Virus record (IMG/VR): IMGVR_UViG_3300033148_002771 | Span: 1 to 49,551 of that record | Reading direction: 5' to 3' (one strand) | DNA length: 49,551 nt | Source: a virus | Shown: positions 1 to 49,551 of the stretch, one piece after another | Layout of the letters: each line of letters opens with the position of its first letter | Position numbering within the stretch: the first letter of the stretch is position 1 | The notes under the pieces: model-generated | Told to the model about the DNA's origin: nothing | What the model saw: the letters and a program-made list of their open reading frames with translations, nothing else | Databases searched by the model: none | Program-made: the position numbers and the translations under genes

Positions 1-114
1 TGATATGTCCTATAACCTGTTTTTGCCCATAGTCCCATAATCCCCTAAAAAGTTTAGATTTTCTACTAAAGTATAGCACACAAAAAGCCGAAAACAAAAC
101 CAAAAAGGAAAACA
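1..114. repeat. 114-bp direct terminal repeat, left copy
   Basis: Bases 1-114 are identical to 49438-49551. The copy contains a promoter-like element on the minus strand (61-89), three CCNATA-type repeats (7-19, 25-32, 32-40) and the ribosome binding site of the first gene (ATG at 117). It may be a true short terminal repeat of a linear phage genome or the overlap left by closing a circular assembly. The sequence alone cannot separate these. Confidence 0.97.
61..89 (-). promoter_or_regulatory. Promoter-like TATACTTT element reading toward the minus arm
   Basis: Read on the minus strand this segment has a T-rich stretch followed by GTGTGCTATACTTTAG. The core (68-77) resembles elements at 265-274 (+) and 49213-49222 (-). 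The shared form is a T-rich run, then TGNG(T/C)TATACTTT. It would drive transcription leftward, across the sequence ends, into the gene starting at 49152. The same element recurs in the right repeat copy (core 49505-49514). This is inference from repetition; there is no clear -35 box. Confidence 0.4.
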
Positions 115-116
115 AA

Positions 117-236
117 ATGATTTTTGGTAAAATTACAAAAAATCTTATCCGTGAAATAGCAGATAGTTTACTGTACGAACCGCCCGTCATGAGTATTTTT
201 TCGGACATATTACTTGAAAGCCTGTTGACAAAATAA
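117..236 (+). CDS. Small unknown protein, 39 aa
   Basis: ATG at 117 is preceded by AAAAAGGAAAACAAA, a good ribosome binding site lying inside the terminal repeat. The product is 39 residues, with an amphipathic start (MIFGKITKNLIREIADSLL) and a short, fairly hydrophobic tail. It is the first gene of the plus arm and lies upstream of the TATACTTT element at 265-274, so it would need its own promoter. Family not recognised. Confidence 0.5.
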   Translation: MIFGKITKNLIREIADSLLYEPPVMSIFSDILLESLLTK

Positions 237-257
237 TTTTTTATTTTGCTTTTTGTT

Positions 258-280
258 TTTATGCGTTATACTTTGCTTAG
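258..280 (+). promoter_or_regulatory. Promoter-like TATACTTT element of the plus arm
   Basis: A T-rich run leads into ATGCGTTATACTTTGC. At least 16 bases match the minus-strand element at 49212-49230 apart from one position. It lies 45 bases before the start codon at 319. TATACT (267-272) would be the -10 box; the sequence 16-17 bases upstream (TTTGCT) is a poor -35 box. Confidence 0.45.
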
Positions 281-318
281 AAACAAAAAATTTTTATTAC
301 TTTTTTAGGGGATGTATC

Positions 319-498
319 ATGCAGGTCACGAACAAAGACGGGAAACTCACAATCATTATTGACACTAACAAGAAACCGACGGAATCAAAATCGGGAAAGA
401 GTTTAATTGTGGCGAGTACACACGGAAACATTCCGACAGCCGTCCAAGTTGACGGGAAACCTCTTATCGTTTCCGTCAATGCTTACGTCAAGGCGTAA
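319..498 (+). CDS. Small conserved-type phage protein, 59 aa
   Basis: I start this gene at ATG 319, which has AGGGG seven bases upstream, rather than at an in-frame codon further upstream that lacks a site. The protein is a compact beta-rich polypeptide: a short basic/acidic N-terminus (MQVTNKDGKLTIIID), a central SGKSLIVASTHGN segment and a C-terminal VDGKPLIVSVNAYVKA. From memory, this pattern is common among small phage early proteins of unknown function. It sits just downstream of the promoter-like element at 258-280. Confidence 0.75.
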   Translation: MQVTNKDGKLTIIIDTNKKPTESKSGKSLIVASTHGNIPTAVQVDGKPLIVSVNAYVKA

Positions 499-573
499 AC
501 GGCACAATCCGTTGGCGGGGGCTTCATGGAGTCTCCGTTTATGGGTTTTGCTGTTAGATTAGGGGAAATTAAA

Positions 574-660
574 ATGTTAGTAATTAGTGAATCTGAATAT
601 ATCACTGTACTTTTTGTTGTATCAGTAGTAGTGTATTGGGTGTTGTTTGCAAGGTTATAG
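574..660 (+). CDS. Single-span membrane microprotein, 28 aa
   Basis: ATG at 574 follows AGGGGAAATTAAA, a strong site. The 28 residues are eight polar or acidic ones followed by a single hydrophobic helix (ITVLFVVSVVVYWVLFARL). This predicts a short N-out or N-in membrane peptide in the early region. The function is unknown. Confidence 0.5.
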   Translation: MLVISESEYITVLFVVSVVVYWVLFARL

Positions 661-670
661 GGGGATTATT

Positions 671-817
671 ATGAAATGTCGAGTATATCTAAAACAAGTG
701 TGGCGTTTACGTTTTTACGTTTATAATTGGTGCTTGTGGAAGCCACAACTTCGTTGGCGTAAAACTTATATCGCCATTGACTGGTTATGGTTCAACGTCA
801 CCTATCATAGGGGGTAA
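671..817 (+). CDS. Trp-rich small basic protein, 48 aa
   Basis: ATG at 671 follows the stop of the previous gene by ten bases and has AGGGGGATTATT upstream. The product has seven tryptophans and many Arg/Lys, with recurring WR and WK pairs. Its family is not recognised. Such Trp/Arg-rich short proteins may be membrane- or nucleic-acid-interacting, but that is inference. Confidence 0.5.
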   Translation: MKCRVYLKQVWRLRFYVYNWCLWKPQLRWRKTYIAIDWLWFNVTYHRG

Positions 818-818
818 A

Positions 819-875
819 ATGTTCGACCGCGTAATATGGTACTTGGCAGTATTGGCATATATGACGCTATGCTGA
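819..875 (+). CDS. Possible 18-aa hydrophobic peptide
   Basis: ATG at 819 begins two bases after the preceding stop, with AGGGGGTAAA upstream. The frame encodes 18 residues, mostly hydrophobic (MFDRVIWYLAVLAYMTLC). The ribosome binding site and tight spacing favour translation. The length leaves this unproven. Confidence 0.3.
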   Translation: MFDRVIWYLAVLAYMTLC

Positions 876-888
876 GAAAGATAACGCT

Positions 889-1041
889 ATGACCGATGAA
901 AAGTGTAAGATGCTAAAATTGACATCAGAAGAACGGCGGGTTTACGAGCAAGAATGTCTTGGGCAATGCACGACGTGTATGCTGGATGGGGCGTGCGAAC
1001 TGCAAGACAAACTTAAGGGGATTGATTATGGCAATCAATGA
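889..1041 (+). CDS. Cys-rich microprotein, 50 aa
   Basis: ATG at 889 is preceded by GAGAAAG at a suitable distance. The protein carries five Cys, including CLGQCTTC and a later C, likely a small zinc site. It overlaps the next gene by 14 bases. No family recognised. Confidence 0.5.
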   Translation: MTDEKCKMLKLTSEERRVYEQECLGQCTTCMLDGACELQDKLKGIDYGNQ

Positions 1042-1189
1042 ACACCTAAACCGACTATACAGAATCAGACATAAATTGACTCCGCCGAAACGAGCAATAC
1101 AAACCGATGGGGGGTTTAGGCGGTTTGCGTGCGGCAAAAACAAGTGTAAGGGTTATTGCCATAAATGTCTTGGGACATTAGATGACTGA
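1028..1189 (+). CDS. Zinc-ribbon-like microprotein, 53 aa
   Basis: ATG at 1028 has AAGGGG upstream and lies inside the end of the preceding gene; an in-frame codon further upstream has no site of its own. The N-terminal half is basic (NRLYRIRHKL). The C-terminal half holds CGKNKCKGYCHKC, a compact four-Cys cluster. A DNA- or RNA-binding role is possible but not shown. Confidence 0.55.
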   Translation: MAINEHLNRLYRIRHKLTPPKRAIQTDGGFRRFACGKNKCKGYCHKCLGTLDD

Positions 1190-1716: not shown

Positions 1717-1922
1717 GTTGCTTTCTCACATTTACATATTGTACCGTCCACAATGTAATTCTTTTCGTTTTGCTCGGTGTAATGCCATAATCATTTTATA
1801 ATTCCCAAAAGCATACTGTCTTCTATATAGCCTACAGTTATACCCAATTGCGAAACATTTTATGGCAATCCTTATTATTTATCTAAAAACGCAGACAATT
1901 TTTGATAAACTGCCATATTTCT

Positions 1923-2045
1923 ATTTTTAATGAAAATCAGATTTGTACATGAAGAAACAGTACATAAATCAAGTAATAATAATTATTATTGTAAAGAGTA
2001 ATATGTACCAAAAAAGCCATAGCAAATTTCATTTTCATTAAAAAT
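1923..2045. repeat. Interrupted inverted repeat around a central palindrome
   Basis: The left arm 1923-1945 and right arm 2023-2045 match at 21 of 23 positions, including a perfect 15-base block (ATTTTTAATGAAAAT). Inside, GTACATA at 1960-1966 pairs with TATGTAC at 2002-2008 around the same centre. A perfect 16-base palindrome, AATAATAATTATTATT, occupies 1975-1990. The arms are nearly concentric, so the whole could extrude as a cruciform or fold as an RNA. Confidence 0.8.
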
Positions 2046-2050
2046 GGGTT

Positions 2051-2080
2051 TGTGGCATTTTGTGCCATTGTGCAGCATTG
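2051..2080 (+). repeat. Three tandem 10-base repeats
   Basis: TGTGGCATTT, TGTGCCATTG and TGCAGCATTG follow each other without gaps, beginning five bases after the inverted repeat. One helical turn per unit puts them on the same DNA face, as for binding sites of an initiator. Confidence 0.7.
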
Positions 2081-2130
2081 TACAAACTACTATAGAGCCA
2101 AACTGTGTTCAAACTATAATCCCAATCATA

Positions 2131-2186
2131 AGTACAGGCATAATCAGATATTAGTACAGCTTATACTATTATAAGTACAGCTTATA
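2131..2186 (+). repeat. Three iteron-like AGTACAG repeats, 21-22 base spacing
   Basis: AGTACAGGCATA (2131), AGTACAGCTTATA (2153) and AGTACAGCTTATA (2174) are spaced 22 and 21 bases, about two helical turns. The last two copies are identical over 13 bases. Confidence 0.7.
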
Positions 2187-2500
2187 ATGGCGGCAAACCG
2201 ACAGTTTATTTGCTGATACAGGAAATATGGTCGAAAAAGGGGTATCCCGAAAGGGGTAGATTGTCCAGGCCCCTCTCTCCAGCCACGCCTCAGTCATGCT
2301 CTGAGTCACGCCTCAGCCACACCCACACACCTATACGTACACATGCAACACAACACTTTTTTGGCTGATTCTCGAATCTGCGGGTTATGGGGTCTGTGCG
2401 TGTAGTCTGTAGGGGTTATAGGGATGTGTGAGAGGGCGATAGCTCCGCGAAAACCTCGATTCTGGCCTCTGAGAGAGGGGGCGGGTGATACCTTTGGCTT

Positions 2501-2523
2501 GGGTGAGGGTGGTCGGGCGTGGG
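2501..2523 (+). other. G-quadruplex motif
   Basis: Four GGG runs at 2501, 2507, 2515 and 2521 are separated by loops of 3, 5 and 3 bases, meeting the usual G3N1-7 rule. A further GGGGG and GGG lie at 2477-2485. The motif is on the plus strand of the non-coding region. Confidence 0.6.
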
Positions 2524-2582
2524 TGGCTTCTTGGCAACCCTCGATATGCTAAAAATCCCCTTTTTCCATAAAATCCTACAAT

Positions 2583-2618
2583 CGTTACAATCGTCACAAC
2601 CCGTCATAGTCCGTCACA
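2583..2618 (+). repeat. Four phased CGTYAYA repeats
   Basis: CGTTACA (2583), CGTCACA (2592), CGTCATA (2602) and CGTCACA (2612) are spaced 9, 10 and 10 bases. This looks like a row of protein-binding sites on one face of the helix, about 200 bases before the first gene of the structural operon. Confidence 0.65.
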
Positions 2619-2719
2619 GCCGGTATTTTTCGTGGATTCGGTGTATTTCCTGAATAGGAAAGTCCGTGTGTATGGGAGAATAGGGTCCCCTATCGTGGAT
2701 TTGAAAAAAATATGAGAAA

Positions 2720-2748
2720 ATTTTTGGGGATTTTTGGGATTTTTCGGG
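2720..2748 (+). repeat. AT-rich tandem repeats of about 10 bases
   Basis: ATTTTTGGGG, ATTTTTGGG and ATTTTTCGGG follow one another directly. They lie in an AT-rich stretch about 65 bases before the gene at 2813. They could serve as an unwinding element; simple slippage is an alternative. Confidence 0.5.
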
Positions 2749-2812
2749 AATTATCGGTGAAACCCTGCGTAATTGGGTACATCTGTGGGCTATATGGAAG
2801 GATGTAAGTATT

Positions 2813-5090: not shown

Positions 5091-5432
5091 ATGGAACATT
5101 CAATAGATAATTACGGTCATGTGGTGCCGCCTGATCCCACGATGGCTCATGTTGTAGCGGCTTCCGGAATAACACTTGCTATGGCTACATCCGGGAATGA
5201 CTATACCCAAACCGTTGAACAGGGGAAGTCATACGCCATTACATACGTAGGTACAGCCGGTAAGAGGATGTTTGTCAGCTTTACGGGCGTGACATCAACG
5301 GCTGCTAACATTGAGTATGTGCTTATGGCTAACCGGGAATATATTATTCATGTACCTATTGGCAAGACCACGCTGTATTGCGAGAGTAACGAAAATTCTA
5401 CAAATGCTTATTTGAGAAAGTTGGCGGAATAA
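5091..5432 (+). CDS. Small beta-rich, probably virion protein, 113 aa
   Basis: A strong AAGGAGATAAC site precedes ATG 5091. The sequence is rich in Thr, Ser, Ala and Val, with alternating hydrophobic strands and few charges, which resembles small capsid-decoration or fibre proteins. It ends in a one-base overlap with the protease gene. The role is inferred from composition only. Confidence 0.55.
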   Translation: MEHSIDNYGHVVPPDPTMAHVVAASGITLAMATSGNDYTQTVEQGKSYAITYVGTAGKRMFVSFTGVTSTAANIEYVLMANREYIIHVPIGKTTLYCESNENSTNAYLRKLAE

Positions 5433-6127
5433 TGATAGAGCTTAGCAAGGATGAGAAAAGAAATCAAAATTTGTATTTCGGTTGTTTGTTTGCCATACTC
5501 TTGGTGTCCTTTATAGCGTGTCAATGGCTTCTGCCCAATCGAGGAAAACTCACGCCGGATGAAATAATGCAATCAGTGGTCCATATCGGCACTGATGCTG
5601 GTTGGCAGGGATCAGGTGTTTATGTAGGTAAAGGCCTGATACTCACAGCGGGTCATGTGATAGAGGGTGGTTGGTCCTTTACGGTAACATTCGAGGACGG
5701 TACCATACGCGAGTCATGCAAGTCTTATCAGGAATCAATGACAGATGTGGGGTTTATTTATCTGGAGGATTATGATGGATACTCCTTGGGGTTTAACAGC
5801 GATGAATGTAACCGAGGGGATGATGTTTATATCTTCGGTAGTCCTTTTGGCTGGGAGTATAATTTTTCTGTTACTAAAGGGATAATTTCCAGTATAAATC
5901 GCGATTGCGGCGGTTTCTTCGGCGACAAGATAATGTTTCAATCTGACGCTGCTTCCTATCCCGGGAATAGTGGTGGGCCGGTGACGGACGACGAGGGAGA
6001 GATTATTGGCATCCTGGTAGGCGGTGTCGGCGGCTCTGACAATATCAGCTTAATTATACCCGCTGATATATGCGAAGCCTCGATGGAAGTATACCTTGCG
6101 ATGCTGAGATTGGCGGAGATGGAGTAA
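5432..6127 (+). CDS. Membrane-anchored trypsin-like serine protease, 231 aa
   Basis: A single membrane helix (YFGCLFAILLVSFIACQWLL, residues about 15-34) is followed by a chymotrypsin-fold domain of the HtrA/DegP type. The catalytic triad is visible: His75 in LTAGH, Asp105 in MTDVG and Ser180 in PGNSGGPV. No PDZ domain is present. Its position just before the packaging genes would suit a prohead protease, but the membrane anchor argues for action at the cell envelope, such as superinfection control or lysis. Both ends overlap neighbours by one base. Confidence 0.85.
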   Translation: MIELSKDEKRNQNLYFGCLFAILLVSFIACQWLLPNRGKLTPDEIMQSVVHIGTDAGWQGSGVYVGKGLILTAGHVIEGGWSFTVTFEDGTIRESCKSYQESMTDVGFIYLEDYDGYSLGFNSDECNRGDDVYIFGSPFGWEYNFSVTKGIISSINRDCGGFFGDKIMFQSDAASYPGNSGGPVTDDEGEIIGILVGGVGGSDNISLIIPADICEASMEVYLAMLRLAEME

Positions 6128-32192: not shown

Positions 32193-32413
32193 GCCGTCAC
32201 CCCCTTCAATTTCTTAAGTTCCGCTATTTGCTTATCCCTTTCATCTACCCGTGTTTTTTGATAAGCAATTTCTGTTTTCGCCTCAACTAACTCTTTTTGT
32301 GCTTTTCCTCTTGCCTCGTGTGCTACTTTTAGGCCGTCCTCTAATTTGGATATAACTTGTCTTTGATGCCTTACTTTAGTTTCAAGCCTTTTTTTACTGC
32401 TTCTTGTTCCCAT
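32189..32413 (-). CDS. Coiled-coil protein, 74 aa
   Basis: GGGAG precedes ATG 32413, which overlaps the primase stop. The whole protein is a charged heptad-containing helix (ISKLEDGLKVAHEARGKAQK, DERDKQIAELKKLKG) without a membrane segment. It may partner the downstream membrane protein, in the manner of spanin subunits, but no signal sequence is seen. Confidence 0.6.
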   Translation of the reverse strand: MGTRSSKKRLETKVRHQRQVISKLEDGLKVAHEARGKAQKELVEAKTEIAYQKTRVDERDKQIAELKKLKGVTA

Positions 32414-34683
32414 TAGTTTGGTCTCCCGAGATATTTGTCATAAACCCATGCCTGTAACGCCAATCCCTTATACTTTAACTCCCGCCGTCCCGATTCCCGT
32501 GACGTTTCTTTACTTACTGAAGGACATTCTGCTAAGATATTACGAATAAATACGGTATTGCCTCCCGCTTTACGCCCATTTTCTCCACACCATTTTTGAT
32601 ACGCCTCAAAGACCATTTGTGTGCTGGTTGATACTTCCAATTTACCCAATGAGCAACATTCATCCACAAACGAACAGATAGGTGATGTAATACTGACCAT
32701 GTCGTGCAGGGTAGCATCTGAGGATTCAGGCCTAATAAACCTTCCACGTTTACGAAGGCGCTTTAACCCCTCCAGTGCCCACGGTATTAGCTTACCTTCC
32801 TCTGCTTCCTTTCTTAGCCGCTTCTTTAGAGTAGTATCCTCTTTCCCAACATACGAATTAGGAAACTCAATGACATTCATGCGGGCTGCAAGGGCCTTAG
32901 CATGATCAGTGAAAGACGGAAGTCCGTTCATGGCTACAGTAAATCTTATTGATAAGTAAGCATCGTAACCCTGGTCATACAAGGGCCTTATGAAGATCGG
33001 ATCACAGCCCACAATACGAAGGATAGTCTCAAGGGCGGCATCAGCCTCACCCGCTCGCGGAGTCTTAGCGTCACCGAGAGTAGCAGCCAGTTTACCGACA
33101 AGAGGAACACGCCCAAATTGCGATGCAAGGCTTTGGAAATCCGTAGAAATACACTGCTGTCTGCCGAGCATAGCTATCATGGCTTCTAAAATTGTGCCCT
33201 TGCCCGACCGAGATCTGCCGGTAAACAGCATCATCCTTTCAAACGACATGTCCGGGGTACAAAGGTAGCCGAACCATTCCTGTAGATGGTCTATCACGCT
33301 GTCGTCATCGTTGAATATGTCCCGAAGTGTAGGAAGTAAAAGTTCTGTCTTAGCATCGGGGTTGAAATCGTAGGGGAATACGCTTATAGAAAAATATGCC
33401 GGGTCAGGATCATAAAGGACGACATTGCCCTTTAGGTATTCTTCTACATCTAACAGACCATTACTAAAAGCTATGAGATTGCGAGGGTCAATCATACCGT
33501 CACGTAACCATATTGGGGGATCGTCTTTTACCGGGCACCACGCAGTAAGAGCGTCAAGGAGGTCTCGTATTTTACCCGCTGTTGGCTTATAGGGTGCTAC
33601 TATGGGACCAGTTGGGGTGGTTTTAATATACCGCTTCCCCTCAAGGTAACGATACAATTTTCCTTTTAGCAAATCTTCCATCATTTCAGTATAGTGGTTG
33701 CCCTCCCAGGTGTACCACTTTTTCCTACGCTTACGCAGCGTGAGCGTGTCACTCTGAATAAAGTTTGTATCCAGGAATCGTCTTGCTATAGGAGCAGCAG
33801 TATCGTCATTGAAAACGTTAGGATCAAGTTTAGGGCCGTGTTTGCCGTGCTTCTTTACATAAGCAATCAGTCCCTCTTGTGTCAATCCGCTTGCTACCCA
33901 CTTGCGAAGATCCTTTATTTCTTTTGGCGGCATCACCCGTTCAATGTCTTTAACCATATCCCGTAGGGCAACATGGCATTTATCTAATCCTTCTTTTCCT
34001 GCTCCTGCATCATTCTCTCCGACGATCCAAACCTTCTTCCCGGTGAGCGGCATTTGTCGTAAGATTTTGAAGCCACCCAAAGCCGAAGGCCTGCCAATCG
34101 CCGTAAAACCCAGATCCGCAGCGGCCAATACGTCAGTTGCACCTTCAACGATAAGGAGCGGTAAGTCACTTTGCGGTAATACCGTCGCATTTTTCTGGAC
34201 CGGATTTCTTTTGGGATCGAGGATATGCAAGTAATTATTCGGCGATACAATCTTAGTTGCTCCCTTAGAAATCCTGCTACAAAGTACCGCAGCAGGGTTT
34301 TCTGTGCTGTCAGATGAGATTCTACACCAATCAGGTCGCCCGCAAATAGGACACTTAACTCCCGCATCTGCGATTCGTATCCATCGGGCACGCCCCGGAA
34401 CATATCCTCCGCCGCTTGCTTGCCTGTTGAGTAGGTAAGTAAGCCCCGGCTTAGAACCTTTCTCATAATACTTTCTCCCGCCTAAACAACGATATTTGAG
34501 ACCCGTGATGTCACCTTTGGCGTCACGCTCCGCGAATACCCAGGCTTGATACGCCGGATAGAACCCCACACCGAGGGCTTGGAGGGAAGAAACCTTTACC
34601 CCCAAGTCCTCGGCTAAGAGTTCAAGCATGGCTGGAAAGACGTTGTTCCGGTAAACATCAAATAGTTTTGCAAGGTCAGCCAT
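32413..34683 (-). CDS. Primase-helicase of the D5/P4 type, 756 aa
   Basis: N-terminal region about 1-100 with beta strands, then a zinc site C111, C114, C120, C135 (CPICGRPDWC). A TOPRIM core follows (LPLLIVEGATDVLAAADLG, Glu180). The SF3/D5 helicase part has Walker A at about 489-497 (GRSRSGKGT) and a following ATLGDAKTP segment. It would prime and unwind DNA for the phage PolA. It lies in the replication operon with TAATG overlaps at both ends. Confidence 0.85.
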   Translation of the reverse strand: MADLAKLFDVYRNNVFPAMLELLAEDLGVKVSSLQALGVGFYPAYQAWVFAERDAKGDITGLKYRCLGGRKYYEKGSKPGLTYLLNRQASGGGYVPGRARWIRIADAGVKCPICGRPDWCRISSDSTENPAAVLCSRISKGATKIVSPNNYLHILDPKRNPVQKNATVLPQSDLPLLIVEGATDVLAAADLGFTAIGRPSALGGFKILRQMPLTGKKVWIVGENDAGAGKEGLDKCHVALRDMVKDIERVMPPKEIKDLRKWVASGLTQEGLIAYVKKHGKHGPKLDPNVFNDDTAAPIARRFLDTNFIQSDTLTLRKRRKKWYTWEGNHYTEMMEDLLKGKLYRYLEGKRYIKTTPTGPIVAPYKPTAGKIRDLLDALTAWCPVKDDPPIWLRDGMIDPRNLIAFSNGLLDVEEYLKGNVVLYDPDPAYFSISVFPYDFNPDAKTELLLPTLRDIFNDDDSVIDHLQEWFGYLCTPDMSFERMMLFTGRSRSGKGTILEAMIAMLGRQQCISTDFQSLASQFGRVPLVGKLAATLGDAKTPRAGEADAALETILRIVGCDPIFIRPLYDQGYDAYLSIRFTVAMNGLPSFTDHAKALAARMNVIEFPNSYVGKEDTTLKKRLRKEAEEGKLIPWALEGLKRLRKRGRFIRPESSDATLHDMVSITSPICSFVDECCSLGKLEVSTSTQMVFEAYQKWCGENGRKAGGNTVFIRNILAECPSVSKETSRESGRRELKYKGLALQAWVYDKYLGRPN

Positions 34684-43836: not shown

Positions 43837-44204
43837 TAAAATTTCCTCACAATTCTCGCATCCATATCGGGTTGATATTGTTTATGTTTTTTCCATTTCC
43901 CCGGAGCAGGCATACCCTTTTCAACGGCAGCCCTAATACTCTTTGCTACCGCCGCCCTGGTCCGGCCAGTTAGAAACGCTATTTGCTTTAATGTCAGACC
44001 GCTATCAACCCGTAAAGAATAAGCATGGGCCTGTGTTCTGGTTAATATGGGAAATAATTGGGGAGCTTTTGCCTCAATGCCCGCCAATATCTGCTGTATG
44101 CGTCGGGGGGATAAGCCCATCCGATCCGCCACCTTGGTTACTGGCAAACCTTCAAAGTCATGGTGACAAAGGCGATAAATTTTTACTTCTTGCTCAGAAA
44201 GCAT
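43836..44204 (-). CDS. Helix-turn-helix, sigma-like regulator, 122 aa
   Basis: ATG 44204 has GGAGG five bases upstream and is preferred to an earlier TTG. Residues 1-45 (MLSEQEVKIYRLCHHDFEGL, VADRMGLSPRRIQQIL) and about 70-98 (LTLKQIAFLTGRTRAAVAKS) are two HTH units of the sigma-70 region 4 type. It may direct transcription of phage genes, perhaps from the TATACTTT elements; that link is speculative. Confidence 0.65.
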   Translation of the reverse strand: MLSEQEVKIYRLCHHDFEGLPVTKVADRMGLSPRRIQQILAGIEAKAPQLFPILTRTQAHAYSLRVDSGLTLKQIAFLTGRTRAAVAKSIRAAVEKGMPAPGKWKKHKQYQPDMDARIVRKF

Positions 44205-44247
44205 TTGATCCTCCGTATAGCCGATGGATGTACCCAAAAACGAAATT

Positions 44248-47022: not shown

Positions 47023-47193
47023 CTACGATATTACTTCGTGAATACCCGTAATTCTGAAACGGTCATTTTTGACGCGGCTGAGCATACCTTTAAGCGTGTC
47101 CTTTAATTGTTTCCTGACGACGTTCTCATCCCCGTACTCAAACGGATCATAATTCAATTCAATGTCAATTATTACTTGTGCTTTGTGTTTCAT
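47023..47193 (-). CDS. Small protein, 56 aa
   Basis: AGGGGGGCGACATT precedes ATG 47193, which overlaps the radical SAM stop by four bases. Beta-alpha pattern (KHKAQVIIDIELNYDPFEYG, RKQLKDTLKGMLSRVKN). Unrecognised. Confidence 0.6.
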   Translation of the reverse strand: MKHKAQVIIDIELNYDPFEYGDENVVRKQLKDTLKGMLSRVKNDRFRITGIHEVIS

Positions 47194-48332
47194 AATGTCG
47201 CCCCCCTATTTAAGCATTTCATTCCAAAATTATATATAGCAGCGGCAAACGACTTGTCTAATTCAGTATCACCACCCCTATTCTCATCCACTGTTCCAGA
47301 TTCACTATAGTTGACGTAGGTATAGACGTTTACATGGCTTATAGCCGACATATTTCCGTATAACCAATTTATTGTATCTGCATAAGTATATTGATCCTCA
47401 CCCGGCAACCCAATCATAATGTTTGGTATCACCTTAATACCGAGACGCCTGAGTTTGTCCACCGCCAAATCTATCGTGCCTTCGCGAGCGGGCTTGCTCA
47501 TTGCCCGTAGAATCTCATTGTTATAGGACTCGACACCTAATTCGACATAGCAGATACCGGACTGGAGCAGGAAATCGTCGTCAAGTTTGAGTAGTTGACT
47601 TGCAGTAGTCTGGATTATGAAGCCGTCGAACACTTGACGAGCAGTTTTCATGCCACAGTATATGGCGGGTAACCATTTATGGGTCTCAGCTTGCCCAAAG
47701 GTCTTATCATCAATATAGATTAACGGTGAATTTAAGCGAGCAGACAATATCGCTCCAGCTTGTTGGGATATTTGCCCGTTTGGCAACTCGACAACCTCAT
47801 TCGGCACTACACAAAACTTGCACCGGTTACTGCATCCTGTGGACATTGTGAGACGTGCTATTGTCTTTGCCCCGGTAAAATGTCGATAATCTACGCCGGG
47901 TTTATAGCCAATAGTGAACCAGTTACATAATGCTTTAATACTGTCACACCAATACACATTATCACAATCTGCAAAGTATTCCTCACCGCAATATCCACCG
48001 ACGTAAACTCGACCGCTAAAATGCCGGGCAACATCAACAATCAGATGCTTATTACAGTCCAATGCCGAAAACGCCAAGGTATCGGGGCGTTCACAATTCG
48101 TATCGTCTATTTGGTCATAAATATCGTCCATGCTATTCGCAAACAGTACATCTGCTTCGGGAAAATTATAGGCAACTTCTGCCATCCACTTCGGTATTTC
48201 CCACGTGGGGCCGAAACGATAATAGCCGGGACGAACACCGGAATATAGCTTGTCGTAATAGTCCCTGGCTCGCTGATCTTCATTCTCGTTCAGCATATCA
48301 CTGTTGAATTGTACTAAAAGTAATTTTCTCAT
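47190..48332 (-). CDS. Radical SAM enzyme, 380 aa
   Basis: The CxxxCxxC cluster is Cys167, Cys171, Cys174 in STGCSNRCKFC. Later YVELGVESYNNEILRAMSK and VIPNIMIGLPGEDQYTY match the SAM-binding strands of radical SAM TIM barrels of the B12-type group. Residues 1-140 resemble a cobalamin-binding-type Rossmann domain (VYVGGYCGEEYF), but the His of the binding motif is not evident. Substrate unknown; modification of a nucleic acid, protein or metabolite is possible. GGAG lies before ATG 48332. Confidence 0.85.
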   Translation of the reverse strand: MRKLLLVQFNSDMLNENEDQRARDYYDKLYSGVRPGYYRFGPTWEIPKWMAEVAYNFPEADVLFANSMDDIYDQIDDTNCERPDTLAFSALDCNKHLIVDVARHFSGRVYVGGYCGEEYFADCDNVYWCDSIKALCNWFTIGYKPGVDYRHFTGAKTIARLTMSTGCSNRCKFCVVPNEVVELPNGQISQQAGAILSARLNSPLIYIDDKTFGQAETHKWLPAIYCGMKTARQVFDGFIIQTTASQLLKLDDDFLLQSGICYVELGVESYNNEILRAMSKPAREGTIDLAVDKLRRLGIKVIPNIMIGLPGEDQYTYADTINWLYGNMSAISHVNVYTYVNYSESGTVDENRGGDTELDKSFAAAIYNFGMKCLNRGATL

Positions 48333-49276: not shown

Positions 49277-49437
49277 GTCCGATAACCGTCATCAGAGAAT
49301 AAACAATTACGCACCAATGGCCTCAACAAAAACTGCCATCATGTTAGCCCGGTGAAATGGCCTCAGACCCTTAGCATGTCCGATAACCTGCGTCTCATAA
49401 TCCGGGCCCGATAAGTTAGACCGATAGTCCGATAATA
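49277..49437. promoter_or_regulatory. Array of CCGATA-type repeats between the arms
   Basis: GTCCGATAACC (49277), GTCCGATAACCTG (49378), CCCGATAA (49407), ACCGATAG (49420) and GTCCGATAA (49427) recur in this 160-base gene-free stretch. They continue in the terminal repeat as GTCCTATAACCTG (7-19), GCCCATAG (25) and GTCCCATAA (32). The pair at 49420-49435 has the same layout as the pair at 25-40. They look like operators for one protein. The rest of the stretch shows no gene. Confidence 0.6.
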
Positions 49438-49551
49438 TGATATGTCCTATAACCTGTTTTTGCCCATAGTCCCATAATCCCCTAAAAAGTTTAGATTTTC
49501 TACTAAAGTATAGCACACAAAAAGCCGAAAACAAAACCAAAAAGGAAAACA
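49438..49551. repeat. 114-bp direct terminal repeat, right copy
   Basis: Identical to bases 1-114. If the genome is circular, position 49438 equals position 1 and the unit length is 49437. See the left copy for its contents. Confidence 0.97.

Follow-up and report, generated by a model that had tools for sequence, protein, structure and literature searches.

A gene-free strand switch in a group of uncultivated phages combines dispersed promoter-like elements with a conserved core that may be an iteron-type origin

Results

Genome layout and relatives

The window analysed in the present study (the whole IMG/VR record IMGVR_UViG_3300033148_002771, 49,551 nucleotides) carries an exact 114-bp repeat at its termini and therefore represents a closed phage genome of ~49.4 kb. 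Structural genes occupy a rightward block (~2.8 to 30.4 kb), and replication and early genes occupy a leftward block (49 to 30.7 kb). The encoded proteins include a D5/DUF5906 primase-helicase, a family-A DNA polymerase, a Sak4-like annealing protein, a PD-(D/E)XK nuclease, a GroES-like protein, a NinG-like protein, and a small tandem-HTH protein (Table 1). By eye, a sigma70-like promoter is present near 245-275, within the island of very small ORFs.

The first 8 kb of the genome had no DNA match among 50,697 phage records, in which TerL and the primase had only distant homologues (~24-32% identity over part of the protein). The genome belongs to a phage group of ~40-50-kb genomes for which no close cultured relative was found among these records. 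A TerL profile search recovered 78 related loci, many of them with an ORF-free gap of 0.7-1.2 kb at the strand switch; every comparison reported here was made on metagenome contigs. The close relatives L008 and L009 (84-87% TerL) stop short of the control region. Two other family members, L170 and L171, are 46-47-kb contigs within MAGs labelled Pseudomonadota and Planctomycetota, a placement that is possibly a host hint or a binning artefact. Long tandem repeats lie at contig ends in L050 (1-382) and L057 (1-916), 6-7 kb upstream of TerL, and contigs may break there.

Table 1. Coordinates of the features in the window
Feature	Position	Strand	Remarks
TTATNGGAC cluster, over circular junction	1-40	-	continued from 49277-49477; copies at 7 and 32
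Island of very small rightward ORFs	118-1189	+	between circular junction and Zn-ribbon gene
Zn-ribbon ORF, 164 aa	1222-1716	-	downstream of left element copy
Promoter/operator-like element, left copy (CGCAATTGGGTATAACTGTAGGCTATATAGAAG)	1820-1852	-	85% identical, inverted, to 2768-2800
Quasi-palindrome, 155 bp	1907-2061		arms 1907-1945 and 2023-2061; perfect 16-bp palindrome AATAATAATTATTATT at centre, 1975-1990
Three AGTACAG-centred units	2125-2186	+	spacing 22 and 21 bp; window-specific so far
C-rich units, about four, 11-12 bp (AGYCAYGCCTC)	2281-2325	+	repeat search
boxA (GAGGGGGCGGGTGATACCTTTGG; family consensus GGACCCCCCGGGTASTACCCTTCGG)	2477-2499	+	profile from 19 relatives
boxB (GGGCGTGGGTGGCTTCTTGGCAACCC; family consensus ACCCTTCTTGGACACC)	2515-2540	+	boxA-boxB profile match
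Iteron array, 9-10-bp units (AAATCCTACAA TCGTTACAA TCGTCACAA CCCGTCATA GTCCGTCACA)	2570-2621	+	lag-9 p=0.002; starts +87 from core
A/T tract, T-runs spaced 9-10 bp	2701-2757	+	upstream of right element copy
Promoter/operator-like element, right copy	2768-2801	+	upstream of rightward structural-gene operon
Trypsin-like serine peptidase (Trypsin_2, 84 bits)	5432-6127	+	among small genes upstream of TerL
D5/DUF5906-type primase-helicase, candidate initiator	32413-34683	-	DUF5906 36.4 bits, D5_N 23.0 bits, both above cutoff
Tandem-HTH regulator, 122 aa, sigma-70 region-4-like	43839-44204	-	candidate binder of element
Promoter/operator-like element, third copy	44208-44238	-	ends 3-4 nt before HTH gene start codon
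Radical SAM protein gene	47190-48332	-	early region
TTATNGGAC cluster	49277-49477	-	outside the gene-free interval; positions >49437 repeat 1-40 (114-bp terminal overlap)

The gene-free interval and its window-specific repeats

The sequence-only reading had described 1717-2812 as a gene-free region packed with repeats and structure elements. Both statements hold: neither strand has a gene-like ORF of at least 60 aa, and most of the repeats exceed chance in shuffle comparisons. The interval is bordered by the minus-strand Zn-ribbon ORF starting at 1716 and a plus-strand ORF at 2813, and the sole ORF candidates inside it, 2385-2597(-) and 2416-2607(-), overlap the conserved core described below. 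A search for structured RNA gave no Rfam match.

Inverted repeats scoring at least 13 numbered three against 0.2 expected (maximum of two in 60 shuffles), namely 1820-1852/2768-2800, the arms of the quasi-palindrome, and the 16-bp palindrome at its centre; the best single one reached p=0.015. In DNA folding, the segment 1900-2068 surpassed 199 of 200 shuffles (z=-2.9). Among the AGTACAG-centred units, the last is a dyad, TATAAG-N5-CTTATA, and the middle one is a near-copy of it. This set had been read as phased iterons: a 17-nt pair is indeed 94% identical, but the three-copy array does not rise above shuffles and its third unit is shorter. No counterpart of this left half (1900-2330), i.e., of the 155-bp quasi-palindrome, the 21-bp units, or the C-rich units, was identified in relatives.

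A single conserved core

The right half of the interval contains a GC-rich core (2477-2540), which in the family consists of the near-palindrome boxA (GGGTASTACCC), then ~40 bp, then boxB. This core lies between the left and right copies of the promoter/operator-like element. More than 20 related phages (G001, G005-G012, G015-G018, and some ten other loci) carry it in a constant position, 2.9-6 kb upstream of TerL, and always on the TerL-pointing strand. Each genome has one copy, with none at the HTH gene, and the core is conserved far better than the promoter element.

A profile built from 19 relatives, with the window excluded, found its best match in the window genome at 2483-2558(+) (8.2 bits versus 2.9 for the next), the expected place and strand. 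Taken alone, this match is weak (E=0.11), and 4 of 60 whole-genome shuffles score as high, with roughly 1e-3 for the place; the place, the strand, and the downstream parts nevertheless agree. In a first pass with a shorter profile the window was not among the listed matches, and the longer boxA-boxB profile found it. The core was also recovered, at E about 2e-6, in L170 and L171, two contigs that a search with TerL alone brought in after the model had been built. G004 is too divergent for the profile (E=0.57), and its whole module can be seen by eye. In G013 and G014, which are more distant, the primase is present and no core was detectable.

The inner pair of boxA is complementary (A/T or G/C) in 16 of 21 genomes, the window being one of the five exceptions. 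Paired changes of this kind would be expected of a protein site with two-fold symmetry. When 2.9 million viral contigs were scanned with boxA, nine matches resulted, six in the phage family and three that look like chance. The core folds as RNA no better than shuffles (z=-0.06) and therefore probably acts as DNA; it is almost certainly a conserved DNA element. A literature search for the boxA and TTATCGGAC strings returned only unrelated primer or gene sequences among the matches listed.

A G-quadruplex had also been proposed for the interval. One such motif is present at 2501, between boxA and boxB (seen in 7 of 400 shuffles; three in the whole genome). It coincides with the conserved core, and most relatives' cores show no evident G4; the G4 itself is therefore probably incidental.

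Iterons and the A/T tract downstream of the core

The CGTYAYA units reported at 9-10 base spacing are supported (10-bp triple, p=0.0025), with those at 2583, 2592, 2602, and 2612 placing 4 of the 25 genome copies inside 36 bp. They are the window's version of a shared array of about three 9-bp iterons. In nine genomes such arrays begin +76 to +100 from the core, with a unit of roughly YTTASACAA, and G004 and the window have nearly identical iterons at an equal offset (+96/+109 from the core). Over +60 to +230 from the core in 26 genomes, the 9-bp period was the strongest of 17 lags (5-21), with a Fisher p of about 1e-11 that is optimistic, since the genomes share ancestry and some significant lag-9 stretches are plain A-rich runs; its double, lag 18, came second (7e-6). 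The signal was individually significant (p<0.05) in 11 of 26 genomes, so that more than half have no significant array, and the iteron sequence varies. Tandem direct repeats at a fixed place, as in iteron origins, are thus found here.

Further downstream, the T-tracts of 2720-2757 recur at 9-10 bp (triple, p=0.0075). The AT-rich tandem repeats are thus present beyond chance. In G016 and G010, the two relatives that show it most clearly, a second A/T tract accompanies the element upstream of the HTH gene; the tract may therefore be promoter DNA rather than the unwinding element proposed. These repeats probably belong to the promoter/operator-like element.

A dispersed element shared with the gene of a tandem-HTH protein

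The outermost repeats had been taken as the arms of a concentric inverted repeat. The arms are real, but they belong to a dispersed element that recurs a third time at the HTH gene. A matrix built from the two outer arms and a BLAST match found exactly three sites in the genome, 1848(-), 2772(+), and 44238(-), at 41-44 bits versus 13.9 for the next. In relatives, a TATATANRGAGG-like element directly precedes the first plus-strand gene, its usual end being TATATANRGAGGG just ahead of that gene. The right copy lies downstream of the core at a variable distance (+141 to +357). Own-genome BLAST revealed an HTH-side copy in at least six genomes, G008, G009, G010, G015, G016, and the window (E=1e-14 to 4e-3); in G008 two genes follow this copy, and the HTH gene is the second of them. 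A third, inverted copy lies left of the core in the window (-631), G016 (-1515), and G010 (-882). Hence the element occurs three times in these genomes and twice in G008, G009, and G015. Several copies, one of them at the regulator's own gene, are what a regulator-controlled element set would have. In G016, the left copy likewise precedes a Cys-rich Zn-ribbon-like ORF; the Zn-ribbon ORF of the window has a homologue in G001 (tblastn 30%, E 7e-15).

The element co-diverges with its copy at the HTH gene. Specifically, the HTH-upstream region tends to match its own genome's core-side element over those of other genomes (permutation p=5e-5), with own-genome match values of 76 in G016, 57 in G015, 38 in G010, 35 in the window, and 30 in G011. 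An exact search of IMG/VR with the window's 30-bp element found nothing, because the element diverges between genomes.

The HTH protein matches Pfam Sigma70_r4_2 (32.2 bits) and is kept in 12 of 15 relatives. Its AF2 model has two HTH units (pLDDT 87), and the closest fold found for it in the PDB was that of an RpoE-type sigma factor, at an E of only 0.025. An invariant FP-L motif and a YxPxMDxxIKxKF-like tail were also seen in the protein. It is a probable late regulator. We read the element as the putative promoter/operator set of this protein, and it is quite likely that the element and its copy at the HTH gene are under one regulator.

Two other identities were considered for the element. 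Transposon ends, with the outer arms as terminal inverted repeats, were rejected by the third, HTH-upstream copy and the matched pairs in relatives. Promoters of a T7-type polymerase appear improbable; the element has an SP6-like look, but no polymerase was found. The search for PF00940 gave no match in 13 genomes, with the control genomes silent too, and no ORF is of a polymerase-suitable size except a 1263-aa ORF without a Pfam match.

A 9-mer concentrated around the core and the circular junction

In 14 genomes, 52 copies of the 9-mer TTATNGGAC lie within -3000 to +300 of the core and 16 elsewhere, a 43-fold higher density near the core (p=6e-46). G005 has 15 copies near the core and none elsewhere, and in several relatives the 9-mer abuts boxA. 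The sites tend to follow the direction of transcription, and the cluster of the window probably lies in the leader of leftward transcription. Because these sites are enriched near the core and clustered at the junction, the interval is the right half of a larger control region of ~3 kb that includes the circular junction (49277-49437 and 1-40).

Candidate initiators and locators of replication

A D5-type primase-helicase, the candidate initiator, is encoded by the window and by all 14 relatives searched. Its gene is about 17 kb from the core round the circle and hence does not adjoin the putative origin. DnaA boxes (TTWTNCACA) were not enriched near the core in 14 genomes, with none near the core in the window, and without such a cluster a DnaA-dependent origin was rejected. 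GC skew, which had been suggested as a check, gave minima at -2384 to +353 around boxA; these are confounded by gene direction, and skew was rejected as an origin locator.

Discussion

The present study suggests that a gene-free stretch of 1.1 kb is the main control hub of this phage genome. Among relatives, the conservation, order, strand, and spacing of its parts are observed directly, as is the parallel divergence of the element and its HTH-gene copy. The proposal that the whole assembly of repeats is a replication origin has to be divided. The conserved core, the iteron array, and the D5 primase-helicase favor it, but the outer repeat and the A/T tract are duplicated at a regulator gene. 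Likewise, comparison with more than 20 relatives bears out the position, the bipartite core, and the 9-bp iterons, but not the left-half repeats.

The locus is best read as a composite cis-acting hub at which the early (leftward) and late (rightward) gene blocks diverge, with two superimposed layers. In the transcription layer, divergent copies of the ~30-50-bp element would flank the region, one facing leftward (1820-1852) and one rightward (2768-2801), and the third would control the tandem-HTH gene (43839-44204). The HTH protein, being sigma region 4-like, may bind the upstream half of the element and recruit the host's RNA polymerase to the TATATA-like -10; the structural operon on the right, the Zn-ribbon gene on the left, and the HTH gene itself would thereby be turned on. 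In the layer of the unique core, boxA, boxB, about three 9-bp iterons, and the A/T-rich tract would most likely constitute the origin, where the primase-helicase would bind the iterons beside the core, open the neighbouring A/T-rich DNA, and load. The identity of the binding proteins, the promoter role of the element, and the start of replication at this site are thus what we infer from sequence.

The origin-like reading stems from the resemblance of the dyad core, the iterons, the A/T tract, the single copy, and the D5-type initiator to an iteron origin. Since the initiator gene is not adjacent, the A/T tract is possibly promoter DNA, and the function is putative only, we do not file the core as a proven iteron origin; whether it is the replication origin at all we regard as evenly balanced. 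By a slight preference, we view the whole as a late-promoter switch that surrounds a probable origin of the iteron type, on which the D5-type primase-helicase would act.

As a second rival reading, the region could be a transcription switch only. The core, the iterons, and the TTATNGGAC sites would then serve the divergent promoters as operators or enhancers, and replication would start at another place. The promoter-like element and A/T tract common to the HTH gene would fit such a switch, as would the many dispersed TTATNGGAC sites that tend to follow transcription, as in operator systems; regulatory regions also have phased repeats. However, unlike a regulator's operator, the core is single in each genome, is better conserved than the element, has no copy at the HTH gene, and stands upstream of the right copy at a variable distance. 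We therefore consider a switch without an origin rather doubtful.

Some phages of similar layout carry cos at the divergent junction. In the main rival reading, the core might be a packaging site (cos or pac), with boxA cut by terminase, boxB and the repeats bound by terminase, and the junction representing joined genome ends; its GC-rich dyad, its uniqueness in each genome, and its constant association with, and orientation towards, a TerL family would suit this role. Yet the window, G005, G007, G008, G009, and G012 are circular assemblies cut at different map positions, and the contig ends of other long records also miss the core, so that reads cross it. Fixed ends at the core were thus not found, which is indirect, as intracellular DNA would be joined too. 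Furthermore, many genes occupy the 3-6 kb that separate the core from TerL, and 9-bp iterons are no usual cos feature. A packaging site is, on this evidence, unlikely.

It is highly improbable that the region is mere noncoding DNA, decayed after the loss of genes or due to chance, in which repeats arose by accident: G001 has three small minus-strand ORFs in the corresponding interval and the window's 21-bp units and palindrome are without counterpart in relatives, but the core, the iteron period, and the element copies are kept across genomes at only 45-68% TerL identity, and for the core and the element this conservation rejects decay, a rejection that does not cover 1900-2330.

Origins and late-gene switches of uncultivated phages are seldom located. 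The region offers concrete, testable sequences, i.e., the 60-bp core, the 9-bp iteron, the 30-bp promoter-like element with its likely regulator, and the 9-mer. Moreover, the co-divergence of regulator and element within genomes provides naturally matched protein-site pairs with which to examine how a sigma-like DNA-binding protein changes its target. Tentatively, and with less confidence than the origin itself, we suggest an undescribed, family-wide origin/late-promoter module in which a dyad core and 9-bp iterons, a D5 primase-helicase, divergent promoters of a tandem-HTH, sigma-like regulator, and a TTATCGGAC array are combined. If true, this module would link the initiation of replication to the early-to-late switch at a single locus in a large uncultivated phage group.

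The winged helix of P4 alpha binds origin repeats (PMC4234260), and the related SCCmec helicase Cch2 binds an intergenic three-iteron site whose direct repeats are required (PMC7581432). Like the origins of P4 alpha, SaPI Rep, and SCCmec Cch2, the present region has short direct repeats arrayed in tandem between genes (about three copies in SCCmec), and its candidate initiator is a D5-type primase-helicase encoded by the phage. In contrast, SaPI and SCCmec origins adjoin the initiator gene, whereas the phage site is ~17 kb from the helicase gene; moreover, a bipartite dyad core comes before this site, divergent promoter-like elements stand on either side of it, and the binding of the initiator is putative. 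With the cos/pac sites of dsDNA phages, the core shares a GC-rich dyad, a single copy, and a divergent junction upstream of the terminase genes, but it is spanned by circular assemblies cut at many positions, lies far from TerL, and is followed by 9-bp iterons. Late promoters of T4 use a phage-encoded sigma-like or co-activator protein (gp55/gp33, MotA). The element resembles these promoters in its TATATA-like -10 without a standard -35 and in the phage protein resembling sigma region 4; it differs in that two HTH units reside in one small protein and in that the element occurs no more than three times in the genome and diverges together with the copy upstream of the regulator's own gene. Stoperators of mycobacteriophage L5 are short asymmetric sites repeated in noncoding DNA and mostly oriented with transcription. 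The TTATNGGAC sites share these properties; unlike stoperators, they are confined to about 3 kb round the core, in genomes where no repressor or lysogeny gene was identified.
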